NCBI GenBank assembly: GCA_016183065.1
Contig: JACPFF010000009.1
Location: 1 to 5,741, forward strand
Source: Deltaproteobacteria bacterium
GTDB taxonomy: Bacteria > UBA10199 > GCA-002796325 > JACPFF01
DNA: 5,741 bases
Direction of reading: 5' to 3'
A program made the position numbers and the translations under genes. Below are positions 128 through 5,741 of the stretch, in pieces (the stretch's first letter is position 1; every line of letters begins with the position of its first letter). The notes beneath the pieces were generated by a model. The model did not search any database and was not told where the DNA came from. It was given only the letters and a program-made list of their open reading frames with translations.

Positions 128-328
128 ATGAGAAGAAAAGTATGGGTGAAAAAGTTCTCATCGTGGAGGGAGGCAAACGCCAGCGACCGGCGTTGTCACC
201 TTCGTCTGTCTCGGATGGAGCGACTCGCCGATATGCAATTGCTGCGGGAGATGTATTACACCTTCAAAGGATATCGTGCCAATGACCGTCGAAGAAGACT
301 TCAAAGAGTTATTACGGTTATTCAATAA
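128..328 (+). CDS. Small charged protein paired with a nucleotidyltransferase
   Basis: This frame encodes 66 residues if started at ATG 128. The core reads KKFSSWREANASDR, then RMERLADMQLLREMYY and, near the end, RRRLQRVITVIQ. It resembles small proteins often found directly upstream of AbiEii/MNT-like nucleotidyltransferases, with the pattern (F/S)-S-x-x-EA-x-x-x-D, then ERL-x-x-x-x-LRE-x-Y, then RL-x-RV at the end. Their function is not established as far as I know; a partner or antitoxin-like role is inference from gene pairing only. The start is uncertain: ATG 128 keeps a family-like N-terminus but has no Shine-Dalgarno sequence; GTG 146 has purine-rich GAGAAGAAAAG upstream; ATG 101 lies inside the transposase tail and is unlikely. 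Its last 47 nt overlap the nucleotidyltransferase in another frame. There are no membrane segments and the protein is strongly basic. Confidence 0.6.
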   Translation: MRRKVWVKKFSSWREANASDRRCHLRLSRMERLADMQLLREMYYTFKGYRANDRRRRLQRVITVIQ

Positions 329-882
329 GCATCGCGTACGGTATTGCATTATTGGGGCCTTTGCCGTGGGATTCCACGCCATATCCCGGTACACAAAAGA
401 CCTCGATCTTTTGGTGGAACCCGAGGAGAGAAACGGGGAACGCATTGTCCGGGCCCTTGAAGAGTTCGGCTTTGGGAGTCTTCCCCTCCACCCCAGCGAT
501 TTTTGTGAGGCGGGGCGGTTCATTCAACTGGGCTATGAACCCGTCAGGATTGATCTCGTTACCGCCATTCAGGGGGTCTCTTTCGAGCGGGTCTGGAGGC
601 ATAAAAAACGTGGGGCGTATGGGAACGAAAGAGTCTATTACAGGGGCTCGCGTACCCTGCGGCTCCGCCTCCGGGTACTTCCTCGTCCACCCGCTTCGCG
701 GGTGCCCGGACTCGGTCGTCGCCACCCAGCTCCGCTGGGCCGCGAAGCACAGTCGAAGACTTTGCGGAGTGTGGTGGAGCCTCCCCCTCACGCTCGCCGT
801 GCTCGCTTCCGGGCGGAAGCAGGATCTTGCGGATTTGGAGTTGCTCCGGAAGGTCCGAACACCGGGAAAACGTTCGCAATAA
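282..882 (+). pseudogene. Nucleotidyltransferase (AbiEii/MNT-like), interrupted by a repeat
   Basis: From ATG 282 (GTG 276 is an alternative; AAGGA at 267-271 precedes both) the frame encodes an N-terminal nucleotidyltransferase domain. Residues 19-45 have the family form VRYCIIGAFAVGFHA, then RYTKDLDLLV. D40 and D42 form the DxD metal-binding pair, and D91 in VRIDLVT is the likely third acid. The family's GG/GS at the start of the loop is here G25-A26. Family-like sequence stops at VYY (residue 120, ending 641), where a GC-rich hairpin repeat begins. The conserved C-terminal segment ASGRKQDLADLELLRKV reappears at 805-855 in a different frame, ending at TAA 880-882. About a dozen residues usually found between these parts seem to be missing. 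Without frameshifting the N-terminal frame runs through the repeat to a stop at 1026-1028, giving a 249-residue hybrid without the proper C-terminus. Relatives act in abortive-infection or type IV toxin-antitoxin systems, or modify tRNA or proteins; which applies here cannot be told. Confidence 0.75.
637..804 (+). repeat. Hairpin-rich dispersed repeat, copy 1 (inside the nucleotidyltransferase)
   Basis: The first 56 nt (637-692) match the last 56 nt of the window at 51 positions, in the same orientation. The element is an array of hairpins: 652-678 (stem GTACCC/GGGTAC with an inner paired segment), 688-704 (CACCCGC-TTC-GCGGGTG, perfect), 725-739 (CCCAGC-TCC-GCTGGG, perfect), 740-767 (CCGCGAAG/CTTTGCGG with one G-T pair, 12-nt loop) and 789-801 (CACG/CGTG, weak). 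The first three share the cap GC-TYC-GC. G+C content is clearly above the surrounding gene. The left edge lies between 637 and 642, because TATTAC could be either gene or repeat. The right edge is about 804 because recognisable nucleotidyltransferase coding resumes at 805, although a perfect hairpin at 805-820 could belong to the element. It carries no protein gene, so it would be non-autonomous if mobile (inference). I do not recognise the family. Confidence 0.8.
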
Positions 883-883
883 T

Positions 884-889
884 GAAAGG
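884..889 (+). promoter_or_regulatory. Shine-Dalgarno sequence supporting the nadD start at 899
   Basis: GAAAGG lies 9 nt before ATG 899. The alternative nadD start at ATG 923 has only weak purine-rich sequence (GGCAAG) in front of it, so this site favours 899. It falls in the 16-nt gap between the end of the broken nucleotidyltransferase (882) and nadD. Confidence 0.5.
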
Positions 890-898
890 CGCTATCGA

Positions 899-1450
899 AT
901 GCCGTCCATTGTGGCAAGCACAATGCGTATCGGGATCCTGGGCGGGGCTTTTGACCCGGTCCACGTGGGTCACGTGGCCATGGTCGACTACGTGCGCCAG
1001 ACCGGTGCGGTCGATCAGGTCCGGGTAATTCCCTGCTATCGACATGCTTTTGCGAAACCGATGGCGCCGTATCATCATCGACTCGCCATGCTGCGTGCGG
1101 CCTTTGCGGAGGGCGCCGGCGTGATGATCTCCGAGATCGAACGGGAACTCGGCGGCGTCAGTTACACGGCGCGGACACTCCGCACGCTGATGGAGCAACA
1201 GCCAGGCGGGCACTTCCGGTTGCTGATCGGTGCAGACCTTCTCTCCGAGGTGCGCACGTGGCATGAGGGGGCATGGCTCGCCCAACATGGCGACTGGCTG
1301 GTGATTCCACGGGGGCCTGCGGGCCCGATACCCGACGTGAGTTCCACACAGATCCGCGATGCCGTGCGTGCCGGTACGTCACTGGACGCGCTCGTCCCCG
1401 CAACAGTCGCGGAGTACATTGCGCAACATCATTTATATGGACATCAGTGA
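899..1450 (+). CDS. nadD: Nicotinate-nucleotide adenylyltransferase
   Basis: NadD transfers AMP from ATP to nicotinate mononucleotide, making deamido-NAD in the cytoplasmic NAD pathway. From ATG 899 the protein has 183 residues. The N-terminus has the nucleotidyltransferase fold signature GGAFDPVHVGH (residues 15-25, with the HxGH motif at 22-25). YRHAFAK (47-53) follows the second strand, SYTARTL (88-94) and LLIGAD (108-113) match the central family motifs, and SSTQIR (148-153) is the C-terminal ATP-binding motif. It ends in the usual VPATVAEYIAQHHLY form. It is shorter than the usual 190-215 residues because the stretch between WLVIPRG and DVSSTQIR is very short, as I recall for myxobacterial-type NadD. 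ATG 923 (175 residues) is an alternative start. The gene follows the broken nucleotidyltransferase by 16 nt and converges on murA with a 7-nt overlap. Confidence 0.9.
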   Translation: MPSIVASTMRIGILGGAFDPVHVGHVAMVDYVRQTGAVDQVRVIPCYRHAFAKPMAPYHHRLAMLRAAFAEGAGVMISEIERELGGVSYTARTLRTLMEQQPGGHFRLLIGADLLSEVRTWHEGAWLAQHGDWLVIPRGPAGPIPDVSSTQIRDAVRAGTSLDALVPATVAEYIAQHHLYGHQ

Positions 1451-2706
1451 CCGTCGTCGCCGTGCTCGCGGGTCATCGTGGCGCCGAGGGCGCCGAGGCG
1501 CGTCTCGATCTGCTCGTAGCCGCGGTCGATGTGATAGACCCGCTCGATCTCGGTGGAGCCCTCGGCCGTGAGTCCGGCGAGCACGAGACTTGCGCTGGCA
1601 CGGAGATCCGTGGCCATGACCGGCGCGCCGCGCAAGCGGGGCACGCCCTTCACGACGGCCGTGGAGCCCTGCACCTGGATGTTGGCCCCCATCCGTTGGA
1701 GTTCGCCGACGTGCATGAACCGGTTTTCGAAAACCGTTTCGTTGATCACGCTGGAACCGTTCGCAATCGTCATGGCAGCCATGAATTGTGCCTGGAGATC
1801 GGTGGCAAATCCGGGGAAGGGGGCCGTGGTGCAATCGACGGCCTCCAGCCGCGGTGGGCCGACGACGCGCAGCGCATCGGTCATCGGGAAAATCTTTGCC
1901 CCGGCCGCCGCCAATTTTTCCAAGAGGGCCTCGATGTGACCCGGCACCATCGATTGGAGCGTGACGTCGCCGCCCGTCATGGCTGTGGCAATGGCAAAAG
2001 TTCCGGCAACAATGCGATCGGGAATGATCGTATGTTCCACGCCACGGAGGCGGGTTACGCCCTGGATCGTGATGTCGGATGTCCCCGCGCCATGGATTTG
2101 TGCCCCCATTGTTGTGAGACACTGCGCGAGGTCCGGGATCTCCGGTTCGCGCGCGGCATTGTGCAGTGTGGTCGTGCCATCGGCCAGTGTTGCGGCCATC
2201 ATGATGTTTTCCGTGCCGGTGACCGTGACGGTCTCAAAGGTGTAGTCGATGCCGCGCAATCGGCGCGCTTCGGCAACGATGTAGCCATTTTCGATGGTAA
2301 TCCGTCCCCCCATCCGTTCCAGGGCCTGCAAATGGAGGCCCATGGGACGTGCACCGATCGCGCATCCGCCCGGGAGTGAGACGCGCGCCCGCCCGCACCG
2401 TGCCAGCAGCGGCCCGAGCACCAACGTGGAGGCCCGCATGGTCTTGACGATCTCATACGGGGCCTCGGCCCGTTCCACCCCGGCGAGACGGACCGTAATG
2501 GTCTCGCCACCTCGCCACTCGGCACCCAGATGCGAGAGGAGTCGACACATCGTCCGGATGTCGCCCAAGTTCGGGAGATGGTGGAGCACCACCGTCTCGT
2601 CGGTGAGGATGGCCGTGGCCAGCAGGGGGAGTGCGGCATTCTTTGCGCCGTTGATCTGCACTGTGCCGTGCAGTGGGTGTCCGCCGTCAATACGAAATCG
2701 GTCCAT
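1444..2706 (-). CDS. murA: UDP-N-acetylglucosamine 1-carboxyvinyltransferase
   Basis: MurA transfers enolpyruvate from phosphoenolpyruvate to UDP-GlcNAc, the first committed step of peptidoglycan synthesis, in the cytoplasm. The 420-residue length is normal. K22-N23 in INGAKNAALP and R91 in KTMRAST are substrate-contact motifs. LPGGCAIGARP places the catalytic cysteine at C115, the residue attacked by fosfomycin, so this is the ordinary Cys form and not the Asp variant of some resistant lineages. D303 in PGFATDLQAQF matches the general base (D305 in E. coli), and DLRASASLVLAGL (367-379) is the conserved C-terminal arginine region. The two repeated inside-out alpha/beta domains are complete. 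ATG 2706 is preceded by AGGGGAG, 6 nt upstream and 11 nt after the prmC stop, so it is probably cotranscribed with prfA-prmC. Its stop overlaps the end of nadD on the other strand, leaving no room for a terminator between them. Confidence 0.97.
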   Translation of the reverse strand: MDRFRIDGGHPLHGTVQINGAKNAALPLLATAILTDETVVLHHLPNLGDIRTMCRLLSHLGAEWRGGETITVRLAGVERAEAPYEIVKTMRASTLVLGPLLARCGRARVSLPGGCAIGARPMGLHLQALERMGGRITIENGYIVAEARRLRGIDYTFETVTVTGTENIMMAATLADGTTTLHNAAREPEIPDLAQCLTTMGAQIHGAGTSDITIQGVTRLRGVEHTIIPDRIVAGTFAIATAMTGGDVTLQSMVPGHIEALLEKLAAAGAKIFPMTDALRVVGPPRLEAVDCTTAPFPGFATDLQAQFMAAMTIANGSSVINETVFENRFMHVGELQRMGANIQVQGSTAVVKGVPRLRGAPVMATDLRASASLVLAGLTAEGSTEIERVYHIDRGYEQIETRLGALGATMTREHGDDGH

Positions 2707-2717
2707 GATGGGCTCCC

Positions 2718-3563
2718 CTAGCGTCGTTGGGCGTGCAGGATCCGTGCAATGCCCTGCAGATCATCGTGCACCTGGCTCGTACTATAGTCCCCGCATGTTG
2801 CAATGAGTTTTATCACGGCATCGGCCTGACCCATGCCGATTTCCAGCCAGACGTCTCCGCCGGAAATCAAATGCTGCGGGGCTTCGGTAATGATGCGTCG
2901 GATGACGGCCAATCCGTCGTCACCGCCGATCACCGCATGACGGGGTTCGTAGTCGCGCACCTCCGGCTGCAGATGGTCCCACTCCGCCTCGCATCCATAG
3001 GGCGGATTGCTGATGATCATAGTGTAGGGGGCCGTGGGGTGGGGCGGGTATCCGTCGGCTTCCAAGAGACGGAGACGGTCGAGGACGGAAAATGTCGTGG
3101 CATTCTCTTTCGCCACCCGGAGCGCGGCTACGGAGATATCTGTCGCCGTCACGGTCGCAGTGGGGCGTTCGATGGCCAGTGTAATCGCAATGCATCCCGA
3201 CCCCGTGCCGATCTCGAGGATGTTGGCCGGTCTCTCTGGGAGGCCGCGCAGGGCGAAGTCGACTAGTTGCTCAGTTTCCGGCCGCGGGATGAGGACGTCC
3301 GGTGTGACGTGAAAGAGACGGCCATAGAAGGGACCACTCCCCAGGAGATATTGCAATGGTTCGCGTGCAACACGGCGGGCCAGCAGCGCCGCGAACGTCG
3401 CGTGGCTCTGCGGCTGGAGCGGCGTGTCACCGTTCGTATGGAGATCGATCCGTCGGCAGTTGAGCGTATGGGCGAGCAACCACTCGGCATCGATCTGCGC
3501 GGACGGGACATCGGCGGCTACGAGCACGCCGGTTGCGTCACGGAGCACGTCGCGAATCGTCAT
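2718..3563 (-). CDS. prmC: Peptide chain release factor N5-glutamine methyltransferase
   Basis: PrmC (HemK) methylates the glutamine of the GGQ motif in RF1 and RF2 using S-adenosylmethionine, which raises the efficiency of peptide release. The protein has 281 residues, the normal length. Residues 1-75 form the N-terminal helical domain that binds the release factor. The methyltransferase domain follows, with [12 protein letters not shown] (91-102), SAM-binding motif [15 protein letters not shown] (117-130), an acidic residue after the second strand in ATDIS (140-144), and the catalytic NPPY at 186-189, which holds the substrate glutamine. The C-terminal [13 protein letters not shown] (206-218) is also characteristic. 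The start codon overlaps the prfA stop (ATGA, 4 nt), implying translational coupling to the gene for its own substrate. A G-rich stretch (AGGGGGA) lies just upstream. Confidence 0.96.
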
Positions 3564-4630
3564 GGTCCCCCTGTCGCCAGGGCCGCTGTCTGAAAATGAT
3601 TGCGGAGACTCTCGATCATCTCGTCGAGATGGCCATCGAGGTAGGTATCGAGCTGATGGATCGTCTTCCCGATGCGATGATCGGTGACGCGGTTTTGCGG
3701 GAAGTTGTAGGTACGGATTTTTTCACTCCGGTCCCCGCTCCCGACCTGCGTGCGTCGCTCCCTGCAGATGGCCTCTTCCTGAGCCTGGCGTTCCTGCTCC
3801 AGGAGCCGCGTGCGCAAAATTTTCATCGCCTTTGCGCGATTCTTGATCTGCGAGCGCTCGTCGCTGCAGGTGACGACGAGACCCGTGGGGGTATGGGTGA
3901 TCCGCACCGCGGAGTCGGTCGTGTTCACGCCCTGCCCGCCAGGTCCGGAGGAGCGGTAGACATCGATCCGGAGGTCGGCCTGGTTGATGTCGATTTCGAT
4001 CTCTTCCGCCTCGGGGAGGACGGCCACGGTGACCGCTGAGGTGTGAATCCGTCCGCTCGCCTCGGTCCGTGGCACGCGCTGGACGCGATGGACGCCACTT
4101 TCGTACTTGAGGGCACTGTAGGCCCCCGTGCCGTGCACCATGGCGATCACTTCCTTGACCCCCCCGATGCCGGTCGCATTGGTCTCCATCACCTCGATCG
4201 ACCACCCCTGGTGCTCGGCATAGCGCGAGTACATCCGGAAGAGATCGGCGGCAAAGAGCGCGGCTTCTTCACCGCCCGTGCCGGCGCGAATTTCGAGAAG
4301 AACATTTTTTTCATCGTTCGGATCGCGGGGGAGGAGGAGCTGCCGCAGGGTCTCCTCGAGGGTACGGACCGACACCTCCAGCCGTTCGATGTCGGCCTCA
4401 ATGAAGTGGCGCATCTCGGCATCGCGCTCGGTCTTCAGAAGCTCGCGGTTATCGGCCAGTTCACGGAGCTGGGCCTGATAGGTCTCATACGCGGCGATGA
4501 TGGGCCGATAACCGGCCTGCTCCTTGGCCAGGGCCTGAAAGTGACGTTGGTCGGTCGCCGTGACGGGGTCGCTTAAGGAACGACTCAGTTCGGCGTACCG
4601 GGTGACAATATGTTCGAGTTGCGTTTTCAT
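3560..4630 (-). CDS. prfA: Peptide chain release factor 1 (RF1)
   Basis: RF1 recognises UAA and UAG stop codons in the ribosomal A site and triggers hydrolysis of peptidyl-tRNA. The protein has 356 residues from ATG 4630, typical for RF1. Residues 1-105 form the helical N-terminal domain. [15 protein letters not shown] (113-127) is a conserved family block. The stop-codon reading PxT tripeptide is PRT at 187-189 in [16 protein letters not shown], and the catalytic GGQ is at 231-233 in [12 protein letters not shown] PxT tripeptide, with no RF2-type SPF, makes it RF1 rather than RF2. The frame stays open upstream to GTG 4660, but that segment is a terminator hairpin and the extra residues are not family-like. 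ATG 4630 has no proper Shine-Dalgarno sequence: a poly-U tract and the terminator stem occupy that place. The gene overlaps prmC by 4 nt and lies 103 nt after rpmE. Confidence 0.96.
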
Positions 4631-4633
4631 CAC

Positions 4634-4669
4634 AAAAAAAACCCCACTGTGCATGTTCACACAGTGGGG
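4634..4669 (-). terminator. Intrinsic terminator after rpmE, touching the prfA start
   Basis: On the minus strand the stem CCCCACTGTG/CACAGTGGGG (10 bp, perfect; arms 4669-4660 and 4651-4642) with an 8-nt loop is followed directly by eight U residues (4641-4634). This is a textbook Rho-independent terminator for rpmE, whose stop is 64 nt upstream. The U-tract ends 3 nt before the prfA ATG at 4630, so the hairpin also lies in the prfA translation-initiation region and could act as an attenuator of the prfA-prmC-murA unit. That role is inference. The plus-strand copy has no U-tract and would not terminate. Confidence 0.88.
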
Positions 4670-4733
4670 GCGCAGAACCTACCAGTTGGGGAATGAGGGA
4701 GACAATGGCAGGCCTGCAAAAATTCGGGATCGG

Positions 4734-4955
4734 TTATTTCGCGCGTGCCTGCTCAAATTTCGCATATTTCTTCCGGAACTTCTCGACCTTCCCGGCCGTA
4801 TCGACCAGCTTCTGTTTTCCCGTGAAAAACGGATGACAGGCGGAACAGATCTCAATGGTCAGATCGTGGCCGAGTGTGGAGAGGGTCCGAAAGGCGTGTC
4901 CACACGCACACGTGACAGTAATCTCTTTTGATTCTGGATGAATCTTTCCTTTCAT
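4734..4955 (-). CDS. rpmE: 50S ribosomal protein L31 (zinc-binding type)
   Basis: L31 (bL31) is a small protein of the large ribosomal subunit that bridges to the small-subunit head. The product has 73 residues, close to the usual 66-75. It starts MKGKIHPE, the family N-terminus, and has the four metal-binding cysteines of the C+ form: C16 and C18 in CAC, C37 and C40 in [24 protein letters not shown] (41-60) is the characteristic C-terminal core. This is the zinc-containing paralogue and not the zinc-free form induced in zinc starvation; whether the genome holds a second copy cannot be seen here. ATG 4955 has a strong Shine-Dalgarno sequence. The gene lies upstream of prfA in the same orientation, separated by an intrinsic terminator. 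Confidence 0.96.
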
Positions 4956-4963
4956 ACTCCCTG

Positions 4964-4969
4964 ACCTCC
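4964..4969 (-). promoter_or_regulatory. Strong Shine-Dalgarno sequence of rpmE
   Basis: GGAGGT on the minus strand lies 8 nt before ATG 4955, near-perfect complementarity to the 16S rRNA tail. It fixes the rpmE start. The same kind of signal is absent at prfA, the next gene downstream. Confidence 0.8.
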
Positions 4970-5111
4970 ACTCATGCTGTTAACGGTTGCGGGGCGTAGC
5001 ATGGGGCGCCGGTCCCGGCAAGCAAAGTTTTGACTTCGGGGGACCTCGAAAAACCGCCTGCGGGGAATGGCCATCGAAGGGTCTCTGGAGAGCCTGGATG
5101 GGGAGTATTGC

Positions 5112-5462
5112 CTAAGCCTTTGATTTTCCCTTGATAATGGTGTCGAGTTCGGCGACGAGGGCCTGATCAGTGGTGAAGGCGCTCCCCCGCCGTCCCTCAC
5201 CCATCTGCTGGAGCGGGGTCTTTCCACTCTCAGCCACGAATTGGGCATTGGCCGCCGGAAGCTCGCCGCTGGTACGGAGGCCGAATAAATTTCGGAGCCG
5301 CTGAAAAGCACTGCGGGACGTTCCTTGTGTCTGGGACTCGACCTCTTTTCCCCGTTGACGGCGCTCGCCAAAGGTGGCGCCGATCCGGCGTCCGTCGCCC
5401 GCCAGATGACCGGGACCAATATGGAGTGCCTCACGATATCGCGACGTATATTTAATGCCCAT
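5112..5462 (-). CDS. Hypothetical basic protein, 116 residues
   Basis: I do not recognise this protein. It starts MGIKYTSRYREALHIGPGHL and ends DTIIKGKSKA. It has no cysteine or tryptophan, no signal peptide, no transmembrane segment and no obvious repeat. It is rich in Arg, Lys, Gly and Gln, particularly over residues 25-62 (GRRIGATFGERRQRGKE, then RSAFQRLRNLFGLR), so nucleic-acid or ribosome contact is possible but unproven. The strongest evidence that it is real is AAGGAG placed exactly 8 nt before ATG 5462, with a plausible promoter upstream. An overlapping minus-strand frame (4952-5434) has no such signal and a low-complexity, Arg/Pro/Ser-rich translation. It lies in the same orientation as rpmE, 156 nt before it, with no clear terminator between, so cotranscription is possible. 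Confidence 0.65.
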   Translation of the reverse strand: MGIKYTSRYREALHIGPGHLAGDGRRIGATFGERRQRGKEVESQTQGTSRSAFQRLRNLFGLRTSGELPAANAQFVAESGKTPLQQMGEGRRGSAFTTDQALVAELDTIIKGKSKA

Positions 5463-5470
5463 CCCCCGAA

Positions 5471-5476
5471 CTCCTT
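5471..5476 (-). promoter_or_regulatory. Shine-Dalgarno sequence of the 116-residue hypothetical gene
   Basis: AAGGAG on the minus strand sits 8 nt before ATG 5462. This is a consensus site at good spacing and decides between the two overlapping minus-strand frames in this region. Confidence 0.75.
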
Positions 5477-5511
5477 CTCGTGACCGTCGTGGCGTCTGGT
5501 GCGTCTGCGGG

Positions 5512-5538
5512 TTTATAGAAAAGCAAAAACCTTGCCAA
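5512..5538 (-). promoter_or_regulatory. Possible sigma-70-type promoter for the 116-residue hypothetical gene
   Basis: On the minus strand TTGGCA (5538-5533, five of six matches to TTGACA) is followed after 15 nt by TATAAA (5517-5512, five of six matches to TATAAT). The spacing is shorter than the usual 16-18 nt. It lies in AT-rich DNA about 50 nt before the start codon at 5462. It is based on pattern only. Confidence 0.35.
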
Positions 5539-5685
5539 AGAGGGAGAGATTGTTGAAAGAAGAAGAGATTGTAAATGATTGGAATTATTTATTTAATATG
5601 GTTATTTGTCCCGTCGATATTGTCAGACGGAGGAGAGATCTGAGTAAATCGGGGAGTGGTCTACTCGCTGGGACGCCCAGTCTCC

Positions 5686-5741
5686 ATTACAGGGGCTCAC
5701 GTCCCCTCCGGCTCCGCCTGCGGGGACTTCCTCGTCCACCC
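5686..5741 (+). repeat. Hairpin-rich dispersed repeat, copy 2 (cut by the window end)
   Basis: This stretch matches 637-692 at 51 of 56 positions in the same orientation and runs off the window. It contains the same first hairpin, here 5701-5727 with stem GTCCCC/GGGGAC, and the left arm of the second (CACCC). Relative to copy 1 two base pairs are swapped on both sides of the stem (A-T to C-G, and G-C to C-G), so pairing is kept; the fifth difference lies outside the stem. This copy is intergenic, about 220 nt upstream of the 116-residue gene. A small hairpin, CTGGG-ACG-CCCAG (5668-5680), sits just before it and may or may not be part of the element. Confidence 0.8.

Follow-up and report, generated by a model that had tools for sequence, protein, structure and literature searches.

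A contig of 5,741 nucleotides from a deltaproteobacterial draft genome (JACPFF010000009.1, analysed over its full length and called the window here) carries the same hairpin-forming sequence twice, which raises the question of what kind of repeat this is and why its fold is kept. The two stretches, at positions 637-692 and 5686-5741, align without gaps and are identical at 51 of 56 positions. Their mismatches, given as copy 1/copy 2, fall at 650 (G/A), 654 (A/C), 659 (G/C), 671 (C/G) and 676 (T/G), the five positions that a preliminary description of the window had listed. The window is the entire contig C18 (5741 bases) of the 1.97 Mb draft genome G000, and the contig end falls within the second copy, as expected where a repeat breaks an assembly (G000 denotes the genome of the window, other G labels other genomes, and L labels the stretches examined). 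The folded core of the repeat, termed E below, is, with a probability of roughly 0.65, the unit of a selfish, non-autonomous miniature mobile element behaving like the Rickettsia palindromic elements (RPE). Since 2000, reports of in-frame palindromic elements of this kind have come mainly from Rickettsia and Wolbachia. Judged from sequence, E is covarying, multicopy, sharp-edged, self-nesting and patchily distributed, and in lineages where it is not amplified it lies on the sense strand of transcribed sites.

The part conserved across relatives is a core of 66-72 nt, longer in some copies and much smaller than the 92-bp repeat unit of G000 (L032-L040, L092-L105). From 5' to 3', E consists of YGACCGA, P1 (4 bp), GGGN, the P2 hairpin, P1', GAGGAAR and P3, a hairpin in which a 3x3 G-N-A/G-N-A loop separates an outer helix of 5 bp from an inner stem. 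In the window, these parts lie as follows.

653-718, minus strand, 5' end at 718: core fold E, 66 nt, matched by covariance model R1 (G000:C18:653-718, E-value 2.8e-16) and supported by covariation
711-708 with 688-685, minus strand: P1, preceded by CGACCGA
703-698 with 694-689, minus strand: P2, preceded by GGGC
684-678, minus strand: GAGGAAG box
677-673 with 657-653, minus strand: outer helix of P3
654 with 676: pair 2 of the P3 outer helix, AU 15, CG 4 and GC 4 in alignment A3
672-670 and 661-659, minus strand: G-N-A/G-N-A loop of P3, followed by the inner stem
659 with 671: middle of the G-N-A/G-N-A loop, no conserved pair; standard pairs in 7 of 23 diverse rows and in 46 of 60 G000 copies

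Selection on a folded form, proposed earlier from the window pair, is strongly supported, by about 45 diverse copies and not by that pair itself. Across 44 sequences, P1 and P2 together are paired in 95.9% of cells with 80 double-change cells; none of 500 shuffles came near this, and slid controls remained below 45%. The second pair of P1 is C-G in 18 of these sequences, G-C in 14 and U-A in 12, with no violations. When P3 is added, the 23 diverse rows of A3 show double changes in 13 of 18 pairs and 96% of cells paired, and the outer helix of P3 is 100% paired, although P3 counts are biased towards structure because the end of P3 was chosen partly by pairing (P1 was positioned by flanking conserved boxes only). 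Further copies thus keep the stems, and among the G000 copies helices are preserved far more often than disrupted. The preliminary description had read four of the five window differences as two compensatory swaps. Only that at 654-676 is clean covariation, in a true helix pair (AT in 41, CG in 14 and unpaired in 5 of 60 G000 copies), because 659-671 is the middle of a 3x3 internal loop whose positions form standard pairs in 10% of cells overall. The invariant unpaired bases of E are GACCGA and GAGGAAR. A strand test comparing G.U with A.C cells gave 17 to 3, but 6 to 3 once the outermost pair was removed, and was set aside as support.

Genome counts were made with covariance model R1, and far more than two copies were found: G000 has 99 matches (about 99 copies), and the 15-mer CTTCCTCGTCCACCC, allowing up to two mismatches, has 112 sites there versus 7 for a reversed control. 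Within the same class, E occurs in 18 of 46 genomes and the other 28 are without a match; the 17 carriers besides G000 have 1-11 copies each. The class may correspond to the candidate phylum UBA10199 of GTDB. Outside the class E is rare (6 of 198 Elusimicrobiota and 3 of 193 Omnitrophota genomes). Every genome used is a draft and many were binned from metagenomes, so isolated occurrences in another phylum could partly reflect binning errors. A strict DNA pattern matched 17 stretches in a collection of 84,980 species, their titles being Deltaproteobacteria, Bdellovibrio sp., Elusimicrobia, Omnitrophica or plain bacterium; it had no match in IMG/VR that would point to a viral origin. Rfam, at gathering and permissive thresholds, yielded no family for E, the best permissive match reaching 18.2 bits versus a cut-off of 48, and above cut-off only tRNA and signal recognition particle (SRP) RNA were reported. 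Literature searches found neither a description from Elusimicrobia nor one of palindromic repeats at T-loops. Separately, a stretch TAACCCTGATATCAATATCGA...GGGGTTCGCGTAGTGACTGACTGGGAGCGCA (L013 from about 1592, L032 from about 1300) is near-identical in two genera (G000, G003) and adjoins E in both; it has no Rfam match in L032.

The sites occupied by E carry much of the argument. A tRNA is found within 300 bp of 29 of the 56 non-amplified copies, against some 1.5% expected from tRNA density by our own estimate; for 27 of these 29, E and the nearest tRNA share a strand. In 20 tRNA-proximal copies, the sequence touching E exactly duplicates nearby sequence across E. Seventeen of these 20 edges could be placed on a tRNA, all in copies co-oriented with it: 15 fall in the T-loop (e.g. 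GGTTC^GAATCC), one in the anticodon loop of tRNA-Cys and one in the D-loop of tRNA-Glu. The breakpoints are mostly in partial tRNA copies beside an intact tRNA. Seven tRNA-side copies (L034, L037, L096, L099, L117, L119, L125) share a second conserved upstream hairpin (GAGAACC...GGTTC) and have terminator-like hairpins 3' of the tRNA fragment.

A second kind of site is the junction between stop and start codons. Twelve copies, from Elusimicrobia, G016 and G010, stand at A^TGA, each with an A to its left and TGA to its right, such that the first TGA of E provides the stop codon and its last A together with TG the start codon. Long open reading frames flank both sides in 6 of the 12. The 12 copies are not all independent, as six of them come from the single genome G060. 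In G016, one E lies inside another (L132), and taking out the inner 68 nt leaves the outer motif intact again; compared by eye with L149, this nested copy has no target duplication. Consistent target duplications were likewise not seen by eye at the G000 copies, nor were terminal inverted repeats or a short target-site duplication evident by eye at the edges of E, and L035 and L039 have flanking inverted repeats.

Copies also lie in frame within several unrelated protein genes, some of them essential, as RPE do. The hosts are dnaX, panE, rlmB, recQ, a rodZ-like gene and yoaA in relatives, and carA, pyrE, acpS, a phytoene/presqualene synthase and a ribonucleotide-reductase intein in G000, where the share of coding versus intergenic copies is inexact, being based on 287 kb of stretches around copies. 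Profile matches run across the insert for TIGR01368 (CarA), TIGR00745 (PanE), NF053712 (YoaA) and SQS_PSY, and are in two parts around it for PyrE and AcpS. The predicted translated element peptide is VPCGSASGYFLVHPLRGSPDSVVA in CarA and VPCGSASGYSLVHPLRGCPDSVVAT in PyrE; in the relatives sampled, carA contains nothing comparable to the insert. The G000 core is without stops in five of six frames. In the coding copies of relatives E is 69, 72 or 90 nt long, a multiple of three in 7 of 7 (one of which, L097, was judged coding without a family match) versus about 6 of 26 other copies by hand count (Fisher p 0.0004). The intein copy (G000:C3:12151-12241, L044) is a mobile element in a mobile element, and a small bacterial SRP RNA gene (L022 1928-2027) is located some 470 bases downstream from the copy in pyrE. 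A mapping of copies to intergenic and intragenic positions, suggested earlier, thus places them beside tRNA fragments, at stop/start junctions and in frame within genes.

Patchy presence, unrelated sites, nesting and amplification argue that E is mobile and selfish. Insertion into exposed single-stranded transcribed sequence is suggested by sharp edges without short duplications, by the tRNA loops and stop/start junctions, and by the sense orientation. E would fold as RNA or as an exposed non-template DNA strand, and an enzyme whose gene lies elsewhere would insert the folded form at transcribed sites that are single-stranded, leaving no short target duplication. It would persist because it is nearly neutral, as suggested by the stop and start codons kept at A^TGA, the core open in five of six frames and the in-gene lengths in multiples of three. 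In G000, a longer form of 92 bp, to which hairpin modules have been added, has reached about 99 copies. Among a transposase-recognised hairpin, a structured RNA and a cruciform, the options named in the preliminary description, the evidence favours a mobile element, on the transcribed strand in non-amplified lineages.

Several points weigh against this reading. None of the enzyme families tested stands out as the mover, and neither movement nor a polymorphic empty site in the DNA was seen. The proposed mode of insertion is deduced from geometry, and the genomes are metagenome drafts. At tRNAs, the mobile unit may be larger than E, comprising the second hairpin and the duplicated tRNA end. Moreover, in-frame copies of G000 are mostly antisense for E, opposite to those of relatives, so the amplified form may have spread differently and the single-strand argument may not hold there.

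The comparison with RPE is one of behaviour, not of sequence. RPE are short, palindromic, multicopy elements of 105-150 bp, found in frame in many unrelated protein genes and also in RNA genes, with no known mover (Ogata et al.; PMC2229807, PMC10969869). E resembles them in being short and multicopy, in its in-frame fusions in unrelated genes, perhaps in its RNA-gene sites and in having no known mover, but differs in length (66-72 nt versus 105-150 bp), in its defined three-helix covarying fold, in its tRNA-loop edges and A^TGA junctions, and in its presence in other phyla. For this reason E is said to work like RPE and is not filed among them, and common descent is not claimed. GTAG- and CGTC-tagged repetitive extragenic palindromes (REPs) include RPE-4, RPE-6 and dRS3, and CGTC REPs are without a dedicated transposase (PMC3733652). 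Like these, E forms short dispersed hairpins, some within genes, and the window form has CGTC beside a hairpin; unlike them, it has no GTAG tag and a larger compound fold. Membership among the CGTC REPs was rejected, as CGTC belongs to P1 and other genera have GGCC, GCGC, CGCC and others in its place, through compensatory changes. Miniature inverted-repeat transposable elements are non-autonomous, gene-free, dispersed and sometimes fused in frame with genes (PMC10969869), as is E, but in E no matching terminal inverted repeats or TA-type duplication are evident by eye, and it is the internal structure that is conserved, not the ends.

A functional small or cis-acting RNA, such as an operon-junction regulator or a tRNA-associated RNA held in place by selection, is an unlikely alternative to a selfish element. 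The strong covariation and the invariant unpaired GACCGA and GAGGAAR are typical of functional RNA, and the location of E on the sense strand, at stop/start junctions or following tRNAs, would suit it; the hosts and sites are nevertheless unrelated (carA, pyrE, dnaX, recQ, rodZ, tRNAs, operon junctions), copies lie within protein-coding sequence, 28 of 46 class genomes are without E and a single genome has about 99 copies. It is also unlikely that E is a mobile RNA, a folded transcript of about 70 nt that becomes part of other transcripts at single-stranded loops (T-, D- and anticodon loops of tRNAs, stop/start junctions, mRNA) and returns to the genome by copying. Such a route would account for the exact edges, the missing short target duplications, the sense orientation and the tRNA fragments ending in loops.

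It is rather doubtful that E is an end or derivative of an IS200/IS605, RAYT, IS110 or retroelement system, moved by that enzyme. REP elements are moved by RAYT (PMC3733652), and one copy in G000 lies immediately beside a truncated gene for a Y1 transposase (C8:65820-65984). E appears to interrupt this IS200-type gene at its HxH motif (G000:C8:65820-66180; L050 1799-2159), so that the gene looks like a victim, not a source. Neither Y1 transposase (present in 14 of 18 carriers and in 24 of 28 non-carriers) nor reverse transcriptase (6 of 18 versus 9 of 28) nor IS110 transposase (1 of 18 versus 8 of 28) is associated with carriage of E. Four carriers (G016, G036, G040, G045) have no match to PF01797 (Y1/HUH transposase), and G016, 98% complete and with six copies, has no Y1, reverse transcriptase or IS110 match.

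Ordinary integrase-type integration at tRNA genes, with E as the attachment end of degraded integrative elements, is improbable. An intact tRNA accompanied by a fragment that reaches from the T-loop to the 3' end is the classic geometry of attachment sites, and E shares with such elements a partial tRNA copy from loop to tRNA end. The units of about 150 bp are without an integrase and have no room for such a gene, many different tRNAs are involved, each with its own fragment, and the same fold occurs within protein genes and at A^TGA junctions. A self-splicing, intron-like RNA excised from transcripts is very improbable: exact edges without a short target duplication, the sense strand, the tRNA loops and an Omnitrophica copy placed in the variable region of a sequence resembling tRNA-Gln (L178) would fit it, but all seven coding copies in relatives are frame-keeping (open and multiples of three), which is needless for splicing, most tRNA fragments stand beside intact tRNA copies, and no Rfam ribozyme matches.

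Returning to the window, E lies there within larger features, and as a correction to the preliminary description, copy 1 sits within a nucleotidyltransferase-like gene and disrupts it.

635-726, plus strand: 92-bp repeat unit of G000, starting with CTATT and ending with GTCGTCGCCACC, holding E in reverse
635-804, plus strand: composite insert, the 92-bp unit with further hairpin modules CCCAGCTCCGCTGGG and GCACAGTCGAAGACTTTGC
276-882, plus strand: nucleotidyltransferase-like gene disrupted by copy 1, N-terminal part 276 to about 634, C-terminal part about 805 to 882 in a different frame
5683-5741, plus strand: second copy, cut by the contig end, containing P3, the GAGGAAG box and the start of P1'

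In the stretches that surround copies, blastn matches the 92-bp unit 103 times, and the composite insert, with an approximate 3' edge, is common to L002-L008 in an alignment of copies. Relative to an intact homologue (L203, genome G033, 66% identical, reading ...IGLRELIKNKKASGRKQDLTDLEIL), the disrupted gene lacks about 11-13 codons and is frameshifted. Small nucleotidyltransferase-like genes (this one and its paralogues) are abundant across the class, with eight matches in G000. In about one-third of the G000 copies (31; e.g. C15:38667, C28:96467), a different hairpin, CAGCGCGCACCGCGCGCGAG, replaces P3, often in tandem arrays, and hairpin modules seem to be swapped like cassettes.

Altogether, E represents a structurally well-defined family from uncultivated groundwater lineages; its edges are exact, and its preference for tRNA loops and A^TGA is strong. 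Genome assemblies break at these repeats, and some proteins in such genomes, essential enzymes included, may contain translated element peptides. With fold, edges and targets now defined, the question of what moves such elements becomes testable.

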